From: Eubacterium sp.
GTDB lineage: Bacteria > Bacillota > Clostridia > Lachnospirales > Lachnospiraceae
DNA: 64,000 nucleotides
Assembly (NCBI GenBank): GCA_017539165.1
Contig: JAFYHN010000112.1
Span: forward strand, 1-64,000
Reading direction: 5' to 3'
Shown: one piece after another, positions 11,822 through 25,591 of the stretch
How positions within the stretch are numbered: position 1 is the first letter of the stretch
Layout: every line of letters begins with the position of its first letter
Notes under the pieces: generated by a model
The model's database searches: none
The model's input: only the letters and a program-made list of their open reading frames with translations
Told to the model about the DNA's origin: nothing
Translations under genes and position numbers: made by a program

Positions 11822-11888
11822 GGGTATGATGTGTGAAAGAATTATAAAATGTGGCTTTTTCCACAAGTGAGAGGTTGTGGAGATTGGG

Positions 11889-13379
11889 ATGAAAAATCGT
11901 ACTAAAAAACGTAAAGGGAAGACTGCAAAGTGCATGAGCATCGTTTTGATGTTTTTGTTTTTGTGTTTTTCATCATTTGCTTCATATGCATCCGAAGACA
12001 GAGGTGAATCTGTAAATATTTCGGATGAAGATGGATATTATAGAATAGAACAGATTCGGGCGGTTGCTCCATATACAAGAGTATTCATTTACCCGGATGA
12101 TAGTTTTGGAACCAATATTCAGGTGAACGGATATCTGAATGGGTTGAAACTCGATCTTGTTAATGTAGATACATGGGCAAGTATCGGTATGGGAATAGAT
12201 TATTATTTTCTGATAGATTTATCTGTATCTATCGATGAAGATGATTTTTCAGCAGTAAAAGATGATCTGGTTGAATTAGCCTCTTCAATGGGAAGTAAGG
12301 ATACTTTGTCTATATATGTGGTCGGAGATAAAAAAACTGTAAGAAAAGCTGACAGATTCTCTTCGTCTCAGGCAGGCGAACTTCAGCAGATTCTTGAGGA
12401 TGTCGAAAGAAAAGGTCAGAATATAGACATATATAAAGCAATAAATACTGTGGTTTTCAATATTAATTCTGAAGATCATAGGAAAGTATTCCAGGAAACC
12501 GAGAATATAGAAGAAGGGCTGGGGCTTGGTGATAACAGAAGAGTCATTGTTGTTATTTCTGATGGAGTGAATGATTCTGGAGACGAAGAAAAAGAAGCTG
12601 TGACATTGGAAAAACTAAATAACAGTAATATACCTCTTTATCTGGTTCAGCTGAGAAAACAGGATAAAAAGCATGTGGAAAATAAAGCTGATATTAAGAG
12701 GATTGCTATAGAGAGCGGAGGAGAGGTTTTTCCTGCTATAGATGATGAAAATGAGAATCCAATAGATAATCTTCAGTTTGAACTAAACTGCTGTTATGTT
12801 GTGACAATGATGTCCAAAAACAATAAAATCAGTAAAGCTCCGATTCCGTTTAATATGGAATATGGTTTTTCAGGTGGTTCGGAACCTTTAAAAACATTTA
12901 ATGATAAGAATGTTATTATAGACAAACATATGATGGACAGTTCTAAACCGACTGTTGAAAGAGTAAAGATAAGTAATGATCATACGGTCCGTGTTGAGTA
13001 TTCAGAACTTATATCTGAAAATGCCAGAGATGTGAATCTGTATAAGCTGACAGATGAAATGGGTAATGTGTATAAACCGACAGGGGCGGACTATTCTGTT
13101 GATGGAAAGAATGTCGTTATACTTACATTTCCTCATAGGTTTTATAATGGAAAGTATAAGCTGAGTATCATGTCGGGAATAACTGATGATACAGAGGAAA
13201 AGAATGAGCTGGAAGCTGTAACAAGAGAGATGATATTCTATGGTGGAGAAGATTTCGTTGTTGAGGAAAGCAGTTTCTTCACCAGATATCGTGTGGGTAT
13301 TATAGTCGTTGGAGCGATACTAGCAATAATTATTCTGGTACTTATATGGAATGAGGCCGGAAAAGTGTCTGATGACTGA
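11889..13379 (+). CDS. Secreted, membrane-anchored von Willebrand factor A domain protein
   Basis: A 496-residue protein with a basic signal peptide (hydrophobic core MSIVLMFLFLCFSSF), an extracellular vWA domain around residues 100-300, a beta-rich region and a C-terminal membrane anchor (VGIIVVGAILAIIILVLIW) with a short cytoplasmic tail. The metal-ion-dependent adhesion site is intact: D110, S112 and S114 in LIDLSVSI, and the later VISDGVND. vWA domains bind protein or glycan ligands through Mg2+. ATG 11889 is preferred over the upstream GTG (11877) because GGAG lies six bases before it. First gene of an operon with the FHA-like, pseudokinase and kinase genes. Ligand unknown. Confidence 0.8.
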   Translation: MKNRTKKRKGKTAKCMSIVLMFLFLCFSSFASYASEDRGESVNISDEDGYYRIEQIRAVAPYTRVFIYPDDSFGTNIQVNGYLNGLKLDLVNVDTWASIGMGIDYYFLIDLSVSIDEDDFSAVKDDLVELASSMGSKDTLSIYVVGDKKTVRKADRFSSSQAGELQQILEDVERKGQNIDIYKAINTVVFNINSEDHRKVFQETENIEEGLGLGDNRRVIVVISDGVNDSGDEEKEAVTLEKLNNSNIPLYLVQLRKQDKKHVENKADIKRIAIESGGEVFPAIDDENENPIDNLQFELNCCYVVTMMSKNNKISKAPIPFNMEYGFSGGSEPLKTFNDKNVIIDKHMMDSSKPTVERVKISNDHTVRVEYSELISENARDVNLYKLTDEMGNVYKPTGADYSVDGKNVVILTFPHRFYNGKYKLSIMSGITDDTEEKNELEAVTREMIFYGGEDFVVEESSFFTRYRVGIIVVGAILAIIILVLIWNEAGKVSDD

Positions 13380-13408: not shown

Positions 13409-13933
13409 ATGGACATAATCAAGTGTGATAAGGGGCATTTTTATGATGCGGACGTATTCTCGGAATGTCCTCATTGTAATCAGCGTATAAATAATGAAGA
13501 TGTGTCAGAGGAGTCTGAGGAAACAAAACTTGTGGTCGGATGGCTTGTTTGTACGAGTGGAGAAGAGTTTGGACAGTTCTACACTTTATATAATGAGATC
13601 AATTCCATAAATGGAGTAAGCATAGTATTTAATGACGAGCTTTCAAGGATTTATGTGGATCTGGCGGGTTCTGAAGTGATACCGGATCTTAATAACAGAG
13701 AGCTTTCGGAAAATGAATATATATATGATCATGATAAATTGCGTATTAAGAATAATACGTTTATGTTAGTGGAACTCTGCAGAGATGGTTTTTCATGGAA
13801 GAAGAAACCTGTAGATGAACGTTCAAATCGTGATATGTTGAAATCTATGTGGAAATGTAGAGTTTGTGGAGTGAAAAACGAGGAAACGACTAATTATTGT
13901 TTTGTATGCGGAGCGGAAAAACCCCAGGAATAA
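13409..13933 (+). CDS. Double zinc-ribbon protein with degenerate FHA-like core
   Basis: A 174-residue cytoplasmic protein. The N-terminus has a metal knuckle (C6, H10, C20, C23), and the C-terminus a CxxC-x11-CxxC zinc ribbon. The middle (about 45-130) opens with GWLVCTSGEEFGQFYTLY, which resembles the start of zinc-ribbon FHA proteins of Firmicutes, but the conserved GR...S..H phosphothreonine-binding residues are not visible, so phosphopeptide binding is doubtful. Lies 29 bases after the vWA gene and 29 before the pseudokinase gene, in one operon. Likely an adaptor of the kinase system (inference). The FHA assignment is tentative; the zinc ribbons are plain. Confidence 0.65.
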   Translation: MDIIKCDKGHFYDADVFSECPHCNQRINNEDVSEESEETKLVVGWLVCTSGEEFGQFYTLYNEINSINGVSIVFNDELSRIYVDLAGSEVIPDLNNRELSENEYIYDHDKLRIKNNTFMLVELCRDGFSWKKKPVDERSNRDMLKSMWKCRVCGVKNEETTNYCFVCGAEKPQE

Positions 13934-13962
13934 GCCGGTAGTATTCGTGATGGGTGATGAAT

Positions 13963-16419
13963 ATGAATAGGAAGTGTACACAATGCAATAACATATTTCG
14001 GATACCCGAAGGGCATGAGGATGATGAACTCTGCTGCCCGTTTTGCGAGAGCGTGGTTGGTTCTGAGGGGAATACTTCTGAACTTCTATATTCTTCTGCG
14101 TTAGCCTCTGGTACTGAAATCGGTGGTAGTTATATCATCGAAGATACTATCAGACAGAGAAGTTTTGAGATAATATATAAAGCCAGGGATAAGAAATCGG
14201 ATTCCCAGGTTATCGTAAAGGAATACTTTCCGGATGGAATACTGGTGAGATCAGAAGGTTCTTATGTAAGTATGCATTCAGAGGTTGAAAGCGGTACTTA
14301 TGAAAGTGGAAAGAGGGACTTTATAAAACTTGCCAATAAGCTAAAGGAATTAAACGGCTTCTGGGGGATACCTGAAGTTCTTGATGTATTAGAAGGGAAT
14401 GGAACGGCATATGTCGTGATGGAGTATCTGAAGGGACGAAAACTCAAGGAATATATGCCTGAAGGGCATATAATGAGTTGGGAACAGGTTGAATCGGCGG
14501 TTTTCCAGATGCTTGATATATTGCAGACACTTCACGATAGAGGGGTGATACATCGCAATATCACAGCCGATAATATACTGGTTGATTCTAAAGGTACATT
14601 TAAGCTTCTGGATTTCGGAATGGATAAGGGCGACGGTGTTGGAGTCCTTGATGATATATATGCTGTGGGTTCTATCCTGTATAGGGCATTTACCGGTAAA
14701 TATCCTCCTTCGAAAAAGGACAGAGAGGCGGGAACTGAGTTTTTACCAGTATATGCTATGAACTCAGAGGTTTCCGTAGAGCTTAGCGATATGGTCATGA
14801 AAGCTATAGCTCTTCAGGAGGAAGACAGATATCAGAGTATAGGTGAGTTTAAGGCAGATATCGAAAGGCTTCAATGGAGTGAGTCTGAAGATGAACCTGG
14901 ATATGAAGATCAAGGGAATCAGGCAACTGAAGATGCTGCAGATCTTCCGCCGGAGAATAGTGGTCCCATTCAGGGGAAAAAACATAAGAGAAAATCCTAC
15001 GAAGAGAATATAAGAAGTGGAAACTGGATGGTTCTGAGGATACTGTTGATCATTATCCTGTTTATGATACTTGGAATCATCATGATAATAAATATAGGAA
15101 TATACAAAGGACCGGCCCCGGAAGAAACGGCTACAGGTGTTGACCTGTCAAGGGATGGAAAGGTTCTGAATATACAGTGTTGGAATACGGAGTTTATTAC
15201 AAGGCTGGCTGAGCATTATCCGGGATTTGTTCTGAATGATCCGGATGATGTTTCAAAAGGCGGAAAGATAGGAGACATCGAAGTAAAGTTATCGATAACG
15301 CCGTCTGATAATGAAGCATATCAGAATAATCTGGATGTGGTGCTGAAGGATAATGCTTCGAAGGAAGAGGATGATAGAGTTGATATCTTCCTGGTTGAAG
15401 CTGATTATGCTTTAAAGTATGTTGATACTGATTATACTGTTCCGATATCTGAACTTGGAATAGATGTTGAGAAAGAACTAGTAACTCAGTATGCTTATAC
15501 GAAGAATATCGTCACTGATTCACTTGGACGTTTGAAAGGGGTATCATGGCAGGTGTGCCCCGGAGTTATGATATATAACAGAGATGCAGCCAAGAAGGTT
15601 TTCGGAAGTGATAATCCGAATACTGTTCAGACAAAAGTTGAGAACTGGTATGAATATAAGAAGGTTGCTGAGCTGATGTATGAAAAAGGTTATCAGATGA
15701 CCTCCTCTGTAGAGGATACTTATAGGGTATTTGCTAATAATGCATCGGCACCATGGGTCGTTGATGGAAGAATCCGTATCGACGACCAGATGAAAGCTTG
15801 GGTAGATATGTCCAGGGAACAGGTTGAAAAGGGGTATACAACAACAGCAGATCTTTGGTCTGCAGAATGGGCGAAAGGCTTTGCTGCAGATTCAAATGTA
15901 TTCTGCTATTTCGGACCGGCCTGGCTTATAAACTTTTCTATGGGCAATATAGATAACGGCAAAAATGAGGATGATGGCTCCAGATGTTTTAAAGGTGGAT
16001 GGGCTGCAACAACGGGCCCGCAGGGATTCTTCTGGGGAGGAACCTGGATATGTGCGGCAAATGGAACTGATAATCCGGCACTTATTGCTGATATTATGAG
16101 AAAGATGACCACTGATGCAGAGATTATGTCTGCTATAGTAAAAGACGACAATGATTTTGTGAATAATATTCCGGCTATGAGAAATGCGGCTACGGATGAT
16201 TCATATGCATTTAAGTCGTTAGGCGGTCAGAATCCCATAGGATTATTTGTGAAGGGAGCAGATAGGATAAAAATAGACAACCTTTCTAAGTATGATCAGG
16301 GATGTAACAATTCTTTCTTGGGGGAGATGAAGGGTTATATCAGGCAGGAAATGACATACGAAGAAGCGGTAAAGAATTTCAAAAAATCAGTTAAGAATAA
16401 ATATCCGGAATTAGACTAG
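13963..16419 (+). CDS. Membrane pseudokinase with extracellular solute-binding domain
   Basis: An 818-residue fusion. Zinc ribbon at residues 5-28 (C5, C8, C25, C28). A Ser/Thr kinase-like domain follows (about 45-300): lysine 86 (IVKEYFPDG) and DFG (217-219) are kept, but the glycine-rich loop is lost and the catalytic HRD is HRN (197-199), so the base aspartate is missing. One membrane segment spans about 355-380. The remainder outside (about 390-818) reads as a family 1 ABC-type sugar-binding protein (GVSWQVCPGVMIYNRDA; WGGTWICAANGTDNPAL) without lipobox. Start: ATG 13963, not the earlier GTG/ATG codons, because it aligns with the start of the next kinase and has GGGTGA upstream. Probably a solute sensor acting through the neighbouring active kinase (inference). 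Confidence 0.8.
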   Translation: MNRKCTQCNNIFRIPEGHEDDELCCPFCESVVGSEGNTSELLYSSALASGTEIGGSYIIEDTIRQRSFEIIYKARDKKSDSQVIVKEYFPDGILVRSEGSYVSMHSEVESGTYESGKRDFIKLANKLKELNGFWGIPEVLDVLEGNGTAYVVMEYLKGRKLKEYMPEGHIMSWEQVESAVFQMLDILQTLHDRGVIHRNITADNILVDSKGTFKLLDFGMDKGDGVGVLDDIYAVGSILYRAFTGKYPPSKKDREAGTEFLPVYAMNSEVSVELSDMVMKAIALQEEDRYQSIGEFKADIERLQWSESEDEPGYEDQGNQATEDAADLPPENSGPIQGKKHKRKSYEENIRSGNWMVLRILLIIILFMILGIIMIINIGIYKGPAPEETATGVDLSRDGKVLNIQCWNTEFITRLAEHYPGFVLNDPDDVSKGGKIGDIEVKLSITPSDNEAYQNNLDVVLKDNASKEEDDRVDIFLVEADYALKYVDTDYTVPISELGIDVEKELVTQYAYTKNIVTDSLGRLKGVSWQVCPGVMIYNRDAAKKVFGSDNPNTVQTKVENWYEYKKVAELMYEKGYQMTSSVEDTYRVFANNASAPWVVDGRIRIDDQMKAWVDMSREQVEKGYTTTADLWSAEWAKGFAADSNVFCYFGPAWLINFSMGNIDNGKNEDDGSRCFKGGWAATTGPQGFFWGGTWICAANGTDNPALIADIMRKMTTDAEIMSAIVKDDNDFVNNIPAMRNAATDDSYAFKSLGGQNPIGLFVKGADRIKIDNLSKYDQGCNNSFLGEMKGYIRQEMTYEEAVKNFKKSVKNKYPELD

Positions 16420-16474: not shown

Positions 16475-18277
16475 ATGGAAAGACGATGCATGAACTGCAT
16501 GAGGATTTTTGAGATACCCAAAGGATATGAGGACGCCGATTTCTGTTGTCCTTTTTGTGGGTTCGTAGAGAATACTTCGCCGGAGAATGAGTCACATCTG
16601 CATCCGGGAGTGGCGGTGAATGAACGATATAAAATCGGCACTGTCATAGGTGCCGGAGGATTTGGGGTTACTTACAAAGCATGGGATGATACTCTGGATA
16701 GTCAGATAGCTGTTAAGGAATATTTTCCTGAGGGGCTTGCTGTCAGAGATAAAGACGGAGTAACGGTTTCGGCGGTTTCTTCAGAAGGTAAAGAAGCATA
16801 TTCGCTCGGAAGAGAGCGGTTTCTGAAAGAAGCCAGAAGTCTTGCAAAGTTCAATAATAATCCGGGAACGGTAACTATATATGATTTCTTTGAACAGAAT
16901 GGTACAGCCTATATAACTATGGAATATCTTGATGGATGTAACATGATGGAGTATATTGAGACCAGGAATGAAAAGGTTTCACTGGATATGCTCCTGGATA
17001 TCACAGACTGTATATGTAATGTTCTGTCTGTGGTGCATTCGACAGGAGTCATACATAGAGATATAAGTCCGGAGAATATATTTGCTGAGTCAGATGGTAC
17101 ATATAAGCTTATTGATTTTGGGGCTGCCAAACAGCAGATTACAAAAGATAAGCGTTCATCTACCGTTATATTGAAACATGATTATGCTCCGTTGGAACAG
17201 TTTTCACATAAAGGAAATGTAGGTCCCTGGACAGATATATATTCATTAGGGGCAACATTATATAAGATTCTGACGGGAATCACACCGAAGGAATCTATTC
17301 AAAGGATCATGCATGATGATATACAGGAACCTATAGAACTTAGGCCTGATATTCCTAAGTATGTAAGCGACTCGATCATGAAAGCTATATCACTGCAGAT
17401 CAAAGATAGGTATAAAACGGCGTTGGAGTTTAAAACTGCGATGCATGGTGAGGGGAAAGAGGAAGATTATAATTTTTCCAGAGTTGAAGTCAGTGATCAG
17501 GATAGAAACAGATTAAGTTCCAAAGAATCTGAAGATAATACTGATGACAAGAATCAAAAAGGTGGAATTCAGCAACAGGAGAGAGATATGGGTAAAGAAT
17601 TGCAGGAGAAAGCATTAAGCGAGACAGAAGGCGATAGCTTTCTTGATATTAATGATTTCATTAATTTCGATGACACAGAGGTGGCACAACAATCTACACA
17701 GATATTGAGAGGAATTCAGGAGGCTGCTAAACAAGATGGCAGTCAGATTCTTAGTTCAACGCCAGTACCAGGAGCTATACCTGGATATGAGGCACCTGGT
17801 GGTAAACAGCCGGGAGCTGAAAAGGTGGAAGAGAAAAAAGAACCATCCAATCCTCAACCGGAAGAAAGAATGCCGCTTGGTTATACCGAGCCACCTAAGA
17901 TTCAGAGAACGGTACCAGGTCAACCGGGAATGCCTCAGCGACCTGTGGGATATGGAGGTCAGCCGGGACAGGGACAGCCTGTACCACCGCCACATCATCC
18001 TCGTCCAAAACAGGGTGGTATGCTCTCTGCCAGAAGAGATGCTGCAAATCAGTTTAAAGAGGAACATGAGAATACAGGCACACTTTCGATGTCTAAGATG
18101 AGCATGGCAAAGTCTACACCTGCTCATAAGCCGAAGGGTATCAGTGCAGTAATAGAACAGCAGACTAACATTTTAAAGGCAACCGACGAGGCTGCCCAGG
18201 CAGCTCAGGGATCAATGTCTGATGATACTGAAAAGAAGAGAAAAGGACTTGGTTCCTTATTCGGAAAGAAAAAGTAA
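16475..18277 (+). CDS. Zinc-ribbon Ser/Thr protein kinase, soluble
   Basis: A 600-residue kinase. The N-terminal zinc ribbon (C5, C8, C25, C28) has exactly the spacing of the pseudokinase before it. The kinase domain (about 50-310) is intact: glycine loop GAGGFG (59-64), lysine 81 in VKEYFPEG, HRD 194-196 with N201, DFG 214-216, and YAPLEQ as the APE region. After residue 320 comes a disordered tail: acidic, then Pro/Gln/Gly-rich, ending in a basic KKRKGLGSLFGKKK. No membrane segment and no PASTA domain, so it is not PrkC. A strong AGGAAGGTGA precedes the ATG. It lies 55 bases after the pseudokinase and is followed by a terminator. No PP2C phosphatase is nearby. Confidence 0.9.
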   Translation: MERRCMNCMRIFEIPKGYEDADFCCPFCGFVENTSPENESHLHPGVAVNERYKIGTVIGAGGFGVTYKAWDDTLDSQIAVKEYFPEGLAVRDKDGVTVSAVSSEGKEAYSLGRERFLKEARSLAKFNNNPGTVTIYDFFEQNGTAYITMEYLDGCNMMEYIETRNEKVSLDMLLDITDCICNVLSVVHSTGVIHRDISPENIFAESDGTYKLIDFGAAKQQITKDKRSSTVILKHDYAPLEQFSHKGNVGPWTDIYSLGATLYKILTGITPKESIQRIMHDDIQEPIELRPDIPKYVSDSIMKAISLQIKDRYKTALEFKTAMHGEGKEEDYNFSRVEVSDQDRNRLSSKESEDNTDDKNQKGGIQQQERDMGKELQEKALSETEGDSFLDINDFINFDDTEVAQQSTQILRGIQEAAKQDGSQILSSTPVPGAIPGYEAPGGKQPGAEKVEEKKEPSNPQPEERMPLGYTEPPKIQRTVPGQPGMPQRPVGYGGQPGQGQPVPPPHHPRPKQGGMLSARRDAANQFKEEHENTGTLSMSKMSMAKSTPAHKPKGISAVIEQQTNILKATDEAAQAAQGSMSDDTEKKRKGLGSLFGKKK

Positions 18278-22267: not shown

Positions 22268-25200
22268 ATGGGAGTTGTTGGGAAGATAGCACTACTGGTA
22301 GGTCAGGCGGACGAGGCTTACCAGCAGGAATTTATCAGTGGCGTTATGAAGCAGGCATTTAAGAGGGGGTATAGTGTCTGTGTTTTTTCTATGTATATTA
22401 AATATCAAAACAGCAAAGAACGTGAAGTAGGAGATTCGAATATATTCAGTCTCATTAACTACGACATGTTTGATGCTGTTATTATTTTGTCTGATACTAT
22501 ACAGACTCCCGGAGTGGAGCAGAAGATAGAGGAGACAATACATAATAGTTATTCGGGTCCAGTCATTTGTGTGGATGTAGACAGTCCATACTTCGAATCA
22601 TATTGGACTGATGGTTATAGTGCAGTGTATTCATTGGTATCTCATCTCATAGAGAAAAGACATTTAACAGATATAGCTTATCTGACCGGAAGAGCACAGC
22701 ATCCTCATTCTAAAAGACGTCTTGAGGCATTTATGGACGCTATGAATGATCATGCCTTAAAGGTGGATGAAAACAGAGTGGGGTATGGGGATTTCTGGTA
22801 TACAAGTGGAATGGTATTTGCAGAAGAAATTCTGAGAGATAGAGAAAATATGCCTCAGGCTGTTGTTTGCGCAAATGACTGTATGGCTATAGGCTTGGCT
22901 GATGAGCTTTCGAGACATGGTATCAATATTCCGGAGGATATGGCGATTGCGGGATATGGAACATCGGAAGAGGGGTGGTCGTGTCCAAAATCTCTGACGT
23001 CTACTTATATTCCTGCAGAGTACTATGGAAGTTTTACTGTGGAATGTCTGGAGAGACTCATGGCAGGAGAGAATATAAGACCTCCATTTTATACTCCAGA
23101 GCTTTTCCTGGGTGAAAGTACAGGAGACAGAACAGTAGCACCGCCTTATGAGAAAAGGCGGAGAGAAAAGTGGGTATCTAAAACTGCAGAAGAAGGATAC
23201 TACTCTATTCATAATACGCTCACACGAGATTTACAGCATTCGAATGATCTGAGTGAGTTTGCTTCTAATCTGTATGAACATCTGTATCAGATTCAGGGAA
23301 TAAAAAGATTCTGTCTTTGTTTGAATGATCTGTGGCTTATGCCGGAATATATGATAGAGAAGGATTTTCCTGAAGAAGGTTATTCAGATAAGATAGCCAT
23401 TGTTGTGGATTATTATACGGATGATTCGGGAGAAACCATAATAGATGTAAACAGAACGTTTAAACGTACGGATCTCCTTCCTGATTTCAGTGATGAACCA
23501 GAAGGATATATATTTACACCTATATATGCTGAAGAAAAGTCGCTTGGATATGTAATGATAAGCTATGGAAAAAATCCAAGAAGTTATGATGAGCTGTATC
23601 GTTTATGGACGGAAGATCTGGCTGAAGGACTGGAATCACTCAGAAGACTTATATGTATGCGTGCTTTCAGAAGTAAAGTGGCAGAACTTGAGAGTATTAA
23701 ATATGCAGGTTCTATCGCATTTGAAGAAACTCGTGAGGAACGAGATGTTTCTGAAGAGGAAATGAAAGAAATACATGAGGTAGAAAGGATTCTTGATGAG
23801 AATCTCTTTGTATATCATTTCCAGCCTATAGTGAATACGATAGATGGAGGTATATTCTCATATGAAGCATTGATGAGATCTGCGACGGATTGGAAGATAC
23901 CGCCGCTTCAGATTATTAAGCATGCTGATACGCTTGGAAGAATATCTGATATAGAAAAGGCAACATTTAATAATATCCTGAGTATAGTCGGAAACTATAT
24001 GAATGTATTCAATGACAGGAAAGTATTTATCAACAGTATACCGGGATGTGAACTGGAAGAGGGAGACAGAAACAGGATACAGGAACTTCTTTCGGAGTAT
24101 TCGGGAATAGCTGTTGTAGAGCTTACTGAACAGGATGAGATTCGTGATGATCAATTGGCTGATCTGAAGCAGAACTATAAAGATCTTGGAATAGAACTGG
24201 CGCTGGATGATTATGGTACAGGATATTCGAACATGAAGAATCTCCTTCGATATATGCCGGGAATAGTAAAGATAGACAGAAGTATTTTGACAGAGATACA
24301 GGGCAGCAAACAGAAACAACATTTTGTAAAAGATGTTATAGATTTTTGTCATTCTAATAGTATTCTCGCATTGGCAGAAGGAGTTGAAACATCCGATGAG
24401 CTGAAGACTGTGATTAGACTCGGGGCGGATCTTGTACAGGGTTACTATACGGGAAGGCCTTCAGAAACTATAGTTGATTCTATAGATGAGAAGATAAGGG
24501 CTGAGATCAGGCATTATCATGAGATGATCAGTCAGGGCGACCTGGATCAGGAATACGAGGCAGGACGAATAAACAGAATATCTGTTAATAATCTTGTCAA
24601 AGAGGGTGTAAACTCTGTTATCATCGGCACAGAAGGTATGACATTTAGAGATATAACTCTTGTGGGGACACCAGGACATAGAACCAATCTTCATGTGCAT
24701 ATAAATAAAGGATATGAGGGTACACTTACCCTTGAAAATGTATCTCTTATCGATACAAAAGGCCATCCTTGTATAGATATAGAACCTGGATCCAGAGCTA
24801 CTATAAGGCTTGTTGGAATGAATCACCTTACTAGCGGAGGGATAAGGGTTCCGGAAGATGCTTCTCTTTTCTTTGAAGGAGAAGGTAATCTGAATATATA
24901 CCTGGACGTAAATGACTGTTATGGAATAGGAAATGGAATTGACAGCCGACATGGTGATCTGTTCTTCTATCAGGATGGAACGATATTTATTGAATCTATG
25001 GGAAGGCGGGCGATAGCTATAGGTTCTGGTCTTGGCGGACGCATAAACATCTGTAAGGGAATGTATAATATCAGTCTTAATTCTGATGAAGGTGTTGCAG
25101 TCGGTTCAATAAATGGAAGTGAAGCTATACTTATACATGAATGTTCTCTTAAGATAAATGCATCTTTGAAGAGTGGAGTTTGTGTCGGAAGTATACGAAA

Positions 25201-25591
25201 TTCCACACAGATAGGAATATGGAACTCATTTGTACAGACCATGACCTCAGGAAAGAGGATAGTTGCATTCGGTACTCTGGAGGGAGAGCGGGCAGAGATT
25301 AAGATGCACGATATGGGGCTGAACATGGATATTATATCAAATGATATGGTTGCGTTAGGAAGTCTTTCAGGAAGTACCGTATTTGATATGAAAACATCCA
25401 ATATCACCTGTTCAGTTGCTGGGGAAAATGCATATGTATTCGGAGGAACAGAGGATGTCGATGTTCGTCTTAAGAATACAGATGTAAGCATTGTTCTGAA
25501 AACGGAAAATGGAGCTGTTTCAAAAGCACCGAAAGAAAGCATAAAAGTTTACAGCAGCCGTTATAGAGTTGTTGATGCTAATCAGCAATAG
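22268..25591 (+). CDS. LacI-type sugar-binding / EAL phosphodiesterase / beta-helix fusion
   Basis: An 1107-residue cytoplasmic protein with four parts. Residues about 1-285 form a periplasmic-binding-type domain as in LacI regulators (AVVCANDCMAIGLADELSRHG; DMAIAGYGTS), but with no DNA-binding helix and no signal peptide. Residues 290-490 are an unassigned, perhaps GAF-like linker. An EAL domain follows (about 505-750): E533-A-L, FINS, ELTEQ, DDYGTGYS (D647, D648), VKIDRS, AEGVET and VQGYYTGRP are all present, so c-di-GMP hydrolysis is likely. Residues about 780-1090 form repeated short beta strands with Gly/Asn/Ser turns, like a right-handed beta-helix. GGGGG precedes the ATG. Single gene with its own promoter. 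Confidence 0.85.
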   Translation: MGVVGKIALLVGQADEAYQQEFISGVMKQAFKRGYSVCVFSMYIKYQNSKEREVGDSNIFSLINYDMFDAVIILSDTIQTPGVEQKIEETIHNSYSGPVICVDVDSPYFESYWTDGYSAVYSLVSHLIEKRHLTDIAYLTGRAQHPHSKRRLEAFMDAMNDHALKVDENRVGYGDFWYTSGMVFAEEILRDRENMPQAVVCANDCMAIGLADELSRHGINIPEDMAIAGYGTSEEGWSCPKSLTSTYIPAEYYGSFTVECLERLMAGENIRPPFYTPELFLGESTGDRTVAPPYEKRRREKWVSKTAEEGYYSIHNTLTRDLQHSNDLSEFASNLYEHLYQIQGIKRFCLCLNDLWLMPEYMIEKDFPEEGYSDKIAIVVDYYTDDSGETIIDVNRTFKRTDLLPDFSDEPEGYIFTPIYAEEKSLGYVMISYGKNPRSYDELYRLWTEDLAEGLESLRRLICMRAFRSKVAELESIKYAGSIAFEETREERDVSEEEMKEIHEVERILDENLFVYHFQPIVNTIDGGIFSYEALMRSATDWKIPPLQIIKHADTLGRISDIEKATFNNILSIVGNYMNVFNDRKVFINSIPGCELEEGDRNRIQELLSEYSGIAVVELTEQDEIRDDQLADLKQNYKDLGIELALDDYGTGYSNMKNLLRYMPGIVKIDRSILTEIQGSKQKQHFVKDVIDFCHSNSILALAEGVETSDELKTVIRLGADLVQGYYTGRPSETIVDSIDEKIRAEIRHYHEMISQGDLDQEYEAGRINRISVNNLVKEGVNSVIIGTEGMTFRDITLVGTPGHRTNLHVHINKGYEGTLTLENVSLIDTKGHPCIDIEPGSRATIRLVGMNHLTSGGIRVPEDASLFFEGEGNLNIYLDVNDCYGIGNGIDSRHGDLFFYQDGTIFIESMGRRAIAIGSGLGGRINICKGMYNISLNSDEGVAVGSINGSEAILIHECSLKINASLKSGVCVGSIRNSTQIGIWNSFVQTMTSGKRIVAFGTLEGERAEIKMHDMGLNMDIISNDMVALGSLSGSTVFDMKTSNITCSVAGENAYVFGGTEDVDVRLKNTDVSIVLKTENGAVSKAPKESIKVYSSRYRVVDANQQ

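Follow-up and report, generated by a model that had tools for sequence, protein, structure and literature searches.

Why would a bacterium join the fold of a Ser/Thr kinase, through a single membrane helix, to a sugar-binding protein of the kind that serves ATP-binding cassette (ABC) importers? The question is raised by a gene in a 64,000-nucleotide stretch of a Eubacterium sp. assembly (GCA_017539165.1, contig JAFYHN010000112.1, positions 1 to 64,000), referred to here as the window. Sequence comparison indicates that receptor Ser/Thr kinases with solute-binding protein (SBP) ectodomains recur in this one genus and that the window protein is a pseudokinase member of the type. A first-pass annotation had read the gene as one polypeptide carrying a ribbon, a kinase fold, a transmembrane (TM) helix and an outer SBP, and this architecture was borne out. 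The open reading frame (ORF; Table 1) is open throughout with zero internal stops. Pfam recognised Pkinase at 67.6 bits (1.5e-18; cut-off 31.7) and, on residues 444-751 of the 821-residue form, SBP_bac_8 at 47.4 bits (3e-12; cut-off 27). The chain has only one strong hydrophobic segment, residues 360-378, which a charged linker separates from the kinase fold. The ribbon was not recognised by Pfam at E 0.1; its assignment rests on cysteine columns that align with those of the kinase encoded by the next gene (K2) and those of relatives. The kinase precedes the sole TM helix and the SBP follows it; a PASTA-kinase topology would place the SBP outside the cell.

Could the kinase half still act as a kinase? 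The domain was aligned with 53 other kinase domains, all from the window genome (G000) and its genus; the set was collected by similarity to the window protein and is hence no census, and it omits copies in 11 overlapping loci and ORFs with phmmer values worse than E 1e-15. A broader search by profile contributed two cut-off kinases, each with HRD, and an N-lobe remnant. The catalytic Asp is present in all 53 other domains and replaced by Asn in the window protein, the sole loss among 54. The alphaC Glu, likewise found in 53 of 53, is Leu, and the APE Glu, again invariant in the others, is deleted. The three loop glycines, kept in 52, 53 and 47 of the 53, are R, R and E. Only 11 residues separate DFG from the alphaF Asp, compared with 35-42 in the other domains. 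The HRN triplet (residues 197-199) and the degenerate glycine loop had been claimed in the first-pass annotation and were found as described; the lost alphaC Glu, the deleted activation segment and the retained Lys86, Asn204 and DFG had escaped it. The alphaF Asp is also still present, and Asn204 lies in the catalytic loop. The window protein thus lacks the glycine loop, alphaC Glu, HRD Asp and activation segment by which an active Hanks-type Ser/Thr kinase is recognised, and by its sequence the domain is a pseudokinase, with lesions at four sites and the fold retained. Given the motifs lost and the residues retained, nucleotide contact is conceivable and phosphotransfer unlikely. A chemistry independent of the HRD Asp, kept or gained, could be imagined from the surviving Lys86, Asn204 and DFG Asp, and paper titles describe SidJ as a pseudokinase with a different activity; with the glycine loop, alphaC Glu, catalytic Asp and activation segment all gone, we regard it as improbable.

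The domain also stands apart from the named families with which it was compared. The DYD pseudokinases are defined by a beta3 Lys-to-Arg change and a DYD motif, and the window protein has Lys86 and DFG, sharing with them only the lost alphaC Glu; like the ActPs3 family it has an activation-loop deletion and a TM helix, yet it retains Lys86, Asn204 and DFG (family definitions from the accessible text of PMC12599244). There was no PASTA match, and the PASTA kinase (PknB/PrkC) model NF033483 scored 113 bits against a cut-off of 450. The pseudokinase forms a long branch, and two kinase trees gave it no supported position.

Where did the outer domain come from? It is at most 66% identical to separate importer SBPs of the genus, the top match being that of G302, and at this level of identity its Pfam match is no chance event; the claim that it reads as the sugar-binding protein of an ABC importer was upheld. 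Those of its nearest relatives that were read begin like lipoproteins and are followed by two permease genes. In a tree of 98 SBP domains the window domain falls within a 22-row set (SH-aLRT 98) consisting mostly of SBPs of the genus, and it keeps 28 of the 28 aromatic or His positions conserved in 57 close SBPs. Among solved structures, a single-sequence search with the outer domain gave one match only (E 3.3) and a profile search gave 5ixp only (E 5.5e-5). The signal peptide or lipobox and adjacent permeases of an ordinary SBP are replaced by a TM anchor behind a kinase, and no permease-like ORF was seen beside the gene. These comparisons indicate that a carbohydrate ABC importer was the source from which the solute-binding domain was captured. 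Cognate importer permeases were not found in G000, where matches to the first, MalF-type permease peak at 40% and 38%; both of these adjoin other SBPs, whose identity to the fused domain is 31-32%. In G302 and G338 a close SBP and two permeases lie between GH13-like and DnaG-like genes (named from sequence or query), and the same locus in G000 holds a divergent set. Separately, C76 of G000 (L165) and loci L167 and L168 share one conserved locus in which the mature SBP and permeases differ by species and the signal peptide region is alike, an apparent in-place importer exchange.

Is the window protein alone in this architecture? In 40 stretches taken from matches in 61 genomes of the genus, we found 8 further kinase-TM-SBP proteins in 6 other genomes (G356, G313 with two, G335 with two, G347, G304 and G346), the G304 genome being a single contig. 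A window-only oddity is thereby ruled out, and the search for this domain order that the first-pass annotation had proposed succeeded. A strong TM segment precedes the SBP in all eight; the SBP was called SBP_bac_8 by Pfam in two (L086, L093) and recognised in the remaining six through phmmer matches to the window domain, with E values between 3e-18 and 6e-101. All eight retain the Lys, the alphaC Glu, the HRD Asp and DFG, and one loop glycine is changed in each of L083 and L086. Because these other fusions keep the catalytic residues, the window protein is best described, on sequence grounds, as a degenerate member of a receptor-kinase type, and the eight fusions argue that SBP domains serve as kinase ectodomains in the genus. 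The first-pass interpretation was supported in part: the pseudokinase stands, by its four lesion sites, but the same architecture occurs on eight kinases with HRD and DFG.

The placed fusions occupy three positions on the SBP tree, split by supported branches: one for the window domain, one for the G356 domain and one for a five-member group made up of L085 (twice), L086, L089 and L093. L094 has no firm place, and L084, too short a match, was left out of the tree. This pattern suggests at least three SBP captures. A kinase of G347 (L112) carries a different type of binding protein, Peripla_BP_4 (1.1e-26). In a scan of 299 Lachnospiraceae genomes, with at most three candidates scored per genome, both halves were spanned only by the window's own protein among the matches listed. 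Outside the genus the kinase-SBP fusion may be rare: in 397 and 391 genomes, with the best candidates (at most two) taken per genome, no single-frame fusion was among the matches listed.

One pair of genomes bears on how such proteins change. The G356 fusion (L083) and a protein of G301 (L105) have very similar kinases with a TM helix; the latter terminates in an unrelated domain with no Pfam match. On the tree, the SBP closest to the G356 ectodomain is L061 of G301, which has a permease gene next to it; the resemblance continues into the linker. The pair represents an ectodomain change between two very similar kinases. The permease adjoining L061 has no match in G356 (E 1e-10) and two in G301 (100% and 95%). 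Permeases are hence missing in both fusions checked, as searches of G000 and G356 found none. These searches also bear on whether the outer domain might still work in transport, as a membrane-tethered SBP feeding a paralogous importer with the kinase fold as a vestigial anchor. Its conserved aromatics are retained and G000 encodes two importers of related type, but both have their own adjoining SBPs, and neither the matching permease type in G000 nor, for the G356 fusion, its counterpart in G356 could be found; we give this explanation little chance.

Some further proteins of the genus touch on the same domains. Adjoining the active-looking G356 fusion, L083:5129-6196 (-) encodes a ribbon, a kinase N-lobe remnant and hydrophobic segments; as a mirror-image pseudokinase it was rejected, having no Pfam match and a profile covering positions 1-91 only. 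SBP domains related to that of the window protein share one chain with choline-binding repeats in L090, L091, L092, L099 and L100 and with BspA-type leucine-rich repeats in L087, L088 and L096 (L087 just under the cut-off), and because of these shared chains the SBP class is seen to serve as a mobile surface module in the genus. The 709-residue product of L095:3311-5437 combines an N-terminal Zn_Ribbon_1 with an SBP domain (296-707) and has no kinase match. At L074:7776-10929 two SBP-like proteins with TM-like beginnings stand in tandem, and a permease is not among their neighbours; a few kb upstream lies a gene for an FtsK/HerA-like ATPase, as read from its sequence.

Table 1. Positions of the gene, its parts and its operon neighbours in the window.
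Feature	Position	Strand	Remarks
Pseudokinase-TM-SBP gene	13954-16419	+	GTG 13954 gives 821 amino acids; likely start ATG 13963 gives 818
Cys4 ribbon, N-terminal	13975..14046	+	Residues 5-28, CTQC ... CCPFC (C5xxC8 ... C25xxC28)
Kinase-fold domain	14131..14862	+	Residues about 57-300; Pfam Pkinase and alignment with 53 kinases
Catalytic triplet HRN	14551..14559	+	Residues 197-199; Asp to Asn
DFG and shortened activation segment	14611..14655	+	DFG residues 217-219; on to Asp231
Single TM helix	15040..15096	+	Residues 360-378; hydropathy scan, mean 3.31 over 19 residues
Solute-binding domain, predicted extracellular	15130..16416	+	Residues 390-818; SBP_bac_8 match
VWA-TM protein	11877..13379	+	VWA 1.2e-9; TM 473-491; orthologue 75% in G318
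Ribbon protein, FHA-like core	13409..13933	+	FHA resemblance by eye; Pfam calls no FHA
Neighbour kinase K2	16475..18277	+	Intact motifs, same ribbon as pseudokinase, no TM

Is the gene real and maintained? It lies third in an operon, after the genes for a VWA-TM protein and an FHA-like ribbon protein and before that for K2, which starts 55 bases downstream of it (Table 1). A related species, G318, carries the flanking genes and the final 84 residues, split over two contigs with a gap in the middle: one contig terminates inside the FHA-like gene, and the other terminates with the last 84 SBP residues, 90% identical, followed by the K2 orthologue in the same order as in the window. The ratio of nonsynonymous to synonymous substitution rates (dN/dS) between the two species is 0.11 for the 84 codons of the SBP tail, 0.09 for K2, 0.18 for the VWA gene and 0.04 for the FHA-like gene; the last 84 codons of the pseudokinase gene are under purifying selection. 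GC content is even across the gene (0.405-0.432 in 600-base windows inside it). A decaying gene or an assembly chimera could be suspected from the long branch of the pseudokinase, from an SBP with the lowest share of conserved positions (see below) and from a junction seen in a single assembly of 112 contigs (estimated 99.54% complete, 4.17% contamination). The dN/dS over the codons common with G318, the same downstream gene, the even GC content and the identical architecture in the single-contig genome G304 make this very improbable. An assembly artefact in particular was judged unlikely, with the architecture present in six other genomes and two G318 contigs bracketing the gene. Of the two outcomes that the first-pass annotation named as refuting it, neither occurred: the outer domain scored above the cut-off of an SBP profile, and the fusion is found again in related genomes.

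What might the operon be for? A relative of the VWA protein occurs in 7 of the 61 genomes of the genus, the window genome included, and in G311, G338 and G334 it sits in a longer module whose ribbon kinases bear a TM helix with 149-163 residues after it. The G311 module (L185:1327-16094; cf. L186 and L187) is a large phospho-Thr one, in which Pfam called, on L185, two PP2C, FHA proteins, a VWA-FHA protein, a kinase-FHA protein, an FHA-ABC exporter, an FHA-trypsin-like protease and a ribbon kinase. No FHA or PP2C domain was called by Pfam in the six window proteins scanned. By eye, L186:8202-8831 and L191:1048-1644 resemble the FHA-like gene of the window, and these genes perhaps encode a conserved degenerate FHA. 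The window operon looks like a pared-down module in which the pseudokinase would supply the TM sensor. A transfer of the sensing part to the pseudokinase is consistent with K2 lacking a TM helix, compared with the TM-bearing ribbon kinases of G311, G338 and G334; the shared ribbon suggests the K2 group as kin of the pseudokinase, and no more than that. Elsewhere in the window, positions 22268-25591 encode a protein of 1107 amino acids with, by sequence reading, a LacI-type binding domain, an EAL domain and a repeat tail.

How does this compare with known systems? The nearest precedent in concept is MviN of Mycobacterium tuberculosis (ActPs3 family), a TM pseudokinase that in this species also bears a carbohydrate-binding domain. 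MviN belongs to peptidoglycan synthesis; PknB phosphorylates it, and it recruits FhaA (PMC12599244). MviN and the window protein are alike as membrane-bound pseudokinases with a carbohydrate-binding domain and an activation-loop deletion, but in MviN all canonical catalytic motifs are degraded, ATP is not bound and, in the text available, no SBP is mentioned, whereas the window protein keeps Lys, Asn and DFG and has an importer SBP. EssB/YukC, a TM pseudokinase of Firmicutes, is similar in its degenerate glycine loop and shortened activation loop; it differs in being part of type VII secretion and in having all three catalytic motifs degraded, again with no SBP mentioned in the accessible text (PMC12599244). 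Both precedents favour a reading in which the pseudokinase would act as a scaffold under ligand control. It would either be phosphorylated by K2 and recognised by the FHA-like protein, in the manner of MviN with PknB and FhaA, or offer a platform to the VWA protein or to some envelope complex, as EssB/YukC does in type VII secretion. The operon includes FHA-like and VWA-TM proteins and the related modules contain FHA and PP2C domains, but Pfam detects no FHA domain in the FHA-like operon protein. We consider such a scaffold unlikely, though it is the strongest of the rival explanations.

Other comparisons concern the sensor. In the actinobacterial GlnH-GlnX-PknG system an extracytoplasmic SBP is likewise proposed to control a Ser/Thr kinase via a membrane protein, but these are three separate proteins with an amino-acid ligand, whereas SBP, TM helix and pseudokinase form one chain in the window (PMC6069109, in the portion accessible). 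CuaD-CuaS-CuaR of Ruminiclostridium cellulolyticum, whose target genes encode a cellobiose importer and a phosphorylase, also uses a second, cellobiose-specific SBP for sensing rather than transport; that SBP is a separate lipoprotein acting on a histidine kinase (PMC10384115, accessible part). PASTA receptor kinases share the plan of a cytoplasmic kinase, one TM helix and an extracellular sensor, and differ in that the sensor consists of PASTA repeats interacting with peptidoglycan (PMC6213207, accessible part). The first-pass annotation knew of no solute-binding fold on a Ser/Thr pseudokinase. None is named in the titles and abstract openings of the literature examined, a coverage that largely leaves out subscription papers, and the words solute-binding, substrate-binding and extracellular never occur in the main text, as available, of a 2025 review of bacterial pseudokinases (PMC12599244); the claim has nevertheless to be narrowed by MviN with its carbohydrate-binding domain and by GlnH and PknG as separate proteins.

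Actinobacterial proteins in which a kinase is fused to an SBP-type domain, of the Peripla_BP type, go under the NCBI product name "bifunctional serine/threonine-protein kinase/ABC transporter substrate-binding protein". No actinobacterial kinase/SBP fusion appeared in the literature or among the plasmid matches listed, where no plasmid record covered 80% of either query. Among animal proteins, HER3/ErbB3 is a receptor pseudokinase with HRN for HRD that activates a partner kinase. Unlike the window protein it is eukaryotic, its partner is itself a receptor and its ectodomain is unrelated.

We favour the explanation that the window protein is a single-pass receptor pseudokinase which recognises a beta-gluco-oligosaccharide and controls K2 by contact, and give it a probability of roughly 0.45, somewhat short of even. 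The outer domain would close on a sugar, and closure or dimerisation would be relayed via the TM helix to the kinase fold; this fold, incapable of phosphate transfer, would contact and regulate the soluble, active-looking K2. The ligand class, the allostery, the partner and the direction of control are what we infer here. A wider scheme, in which the genus repeatedly captures importer sugar-binding domains as receptor-kinase ectodomains, the permeases are gone in G000 and G356, and the window receptor has been split HER3-style into a dead membrane sensor and a live soluble kinase, is put forward tentatively, as a possible but doubtful extension.

The ligand is most likely, though not certainly, a beta-gluco-oligosaccharide such as cellobiose, a short cellodextrin or another member of the class. 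Of 20 family loci, taken from the upper rows of the family-wide match list and including some short contigs, 9 have close to the SBP a gene like those of glycoside hydrolase family 94 (GH94), with at least 50% identity to the query; a tenth locus has a 32% match. In a second set (at least 8 kb) such a gene is present in 6 of 15 loci, the query's own among them. Among solved structures, the GH94 query finds cellobiose phosphorylases. In Lachnospira eligens the vicinity of a 43% identical SBP includes a GH1 beta-glucosidase and a GH94-like gene that carries a glycosyl transferase annotation, and a cellobiose phosphorylase-like gene is present elsewhere in the window genome.

Several observations weigh against the favoured explanation. 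GH94 is absent from all four of the importer loci that were taken from the host genus (L167-L170), and the ligand may for this reason differ. Of 121 conserved positions the window domain keeps 110; its share of 0.909 is the smallest among 58 rows, the 57 others ranging from 0.926 to 1.000. With this share, the outer domain appears to be relaxed or retuned, its SBP core present though drifted further, by this measure, than any importer SBP compared. The kinase tree does not join the pseudokinase to the K2 group, a joint grouping being neither rejected (p-AU 0.20) nor supported, and kinases of the K2 group lack a TM helix in 4 of 10 relatives, one of which is the K2 orthologue of G318. The kinase-SBP junction of the window gene is present in one assembly only. 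Finally, MviN, the pseudokinase nearest in concept, acts as a phosphorylated scaffold and not as an activator, according to the accessible text of PMC12599244.

The stimuli that activate bacterial Ser/Thr kinases are described as an outstanding question (PMC6069109, in the part available). The class of ectodomain found here allows direct ligand screening, so that a receptor-kinase family with an identifiable ligand becomes testable. If the favoured explanation is true, a receptor pseudokinase paired with an active-looking kinase would give bacteria an equivalent of the allosteric receptor pseudokinases known from animals.

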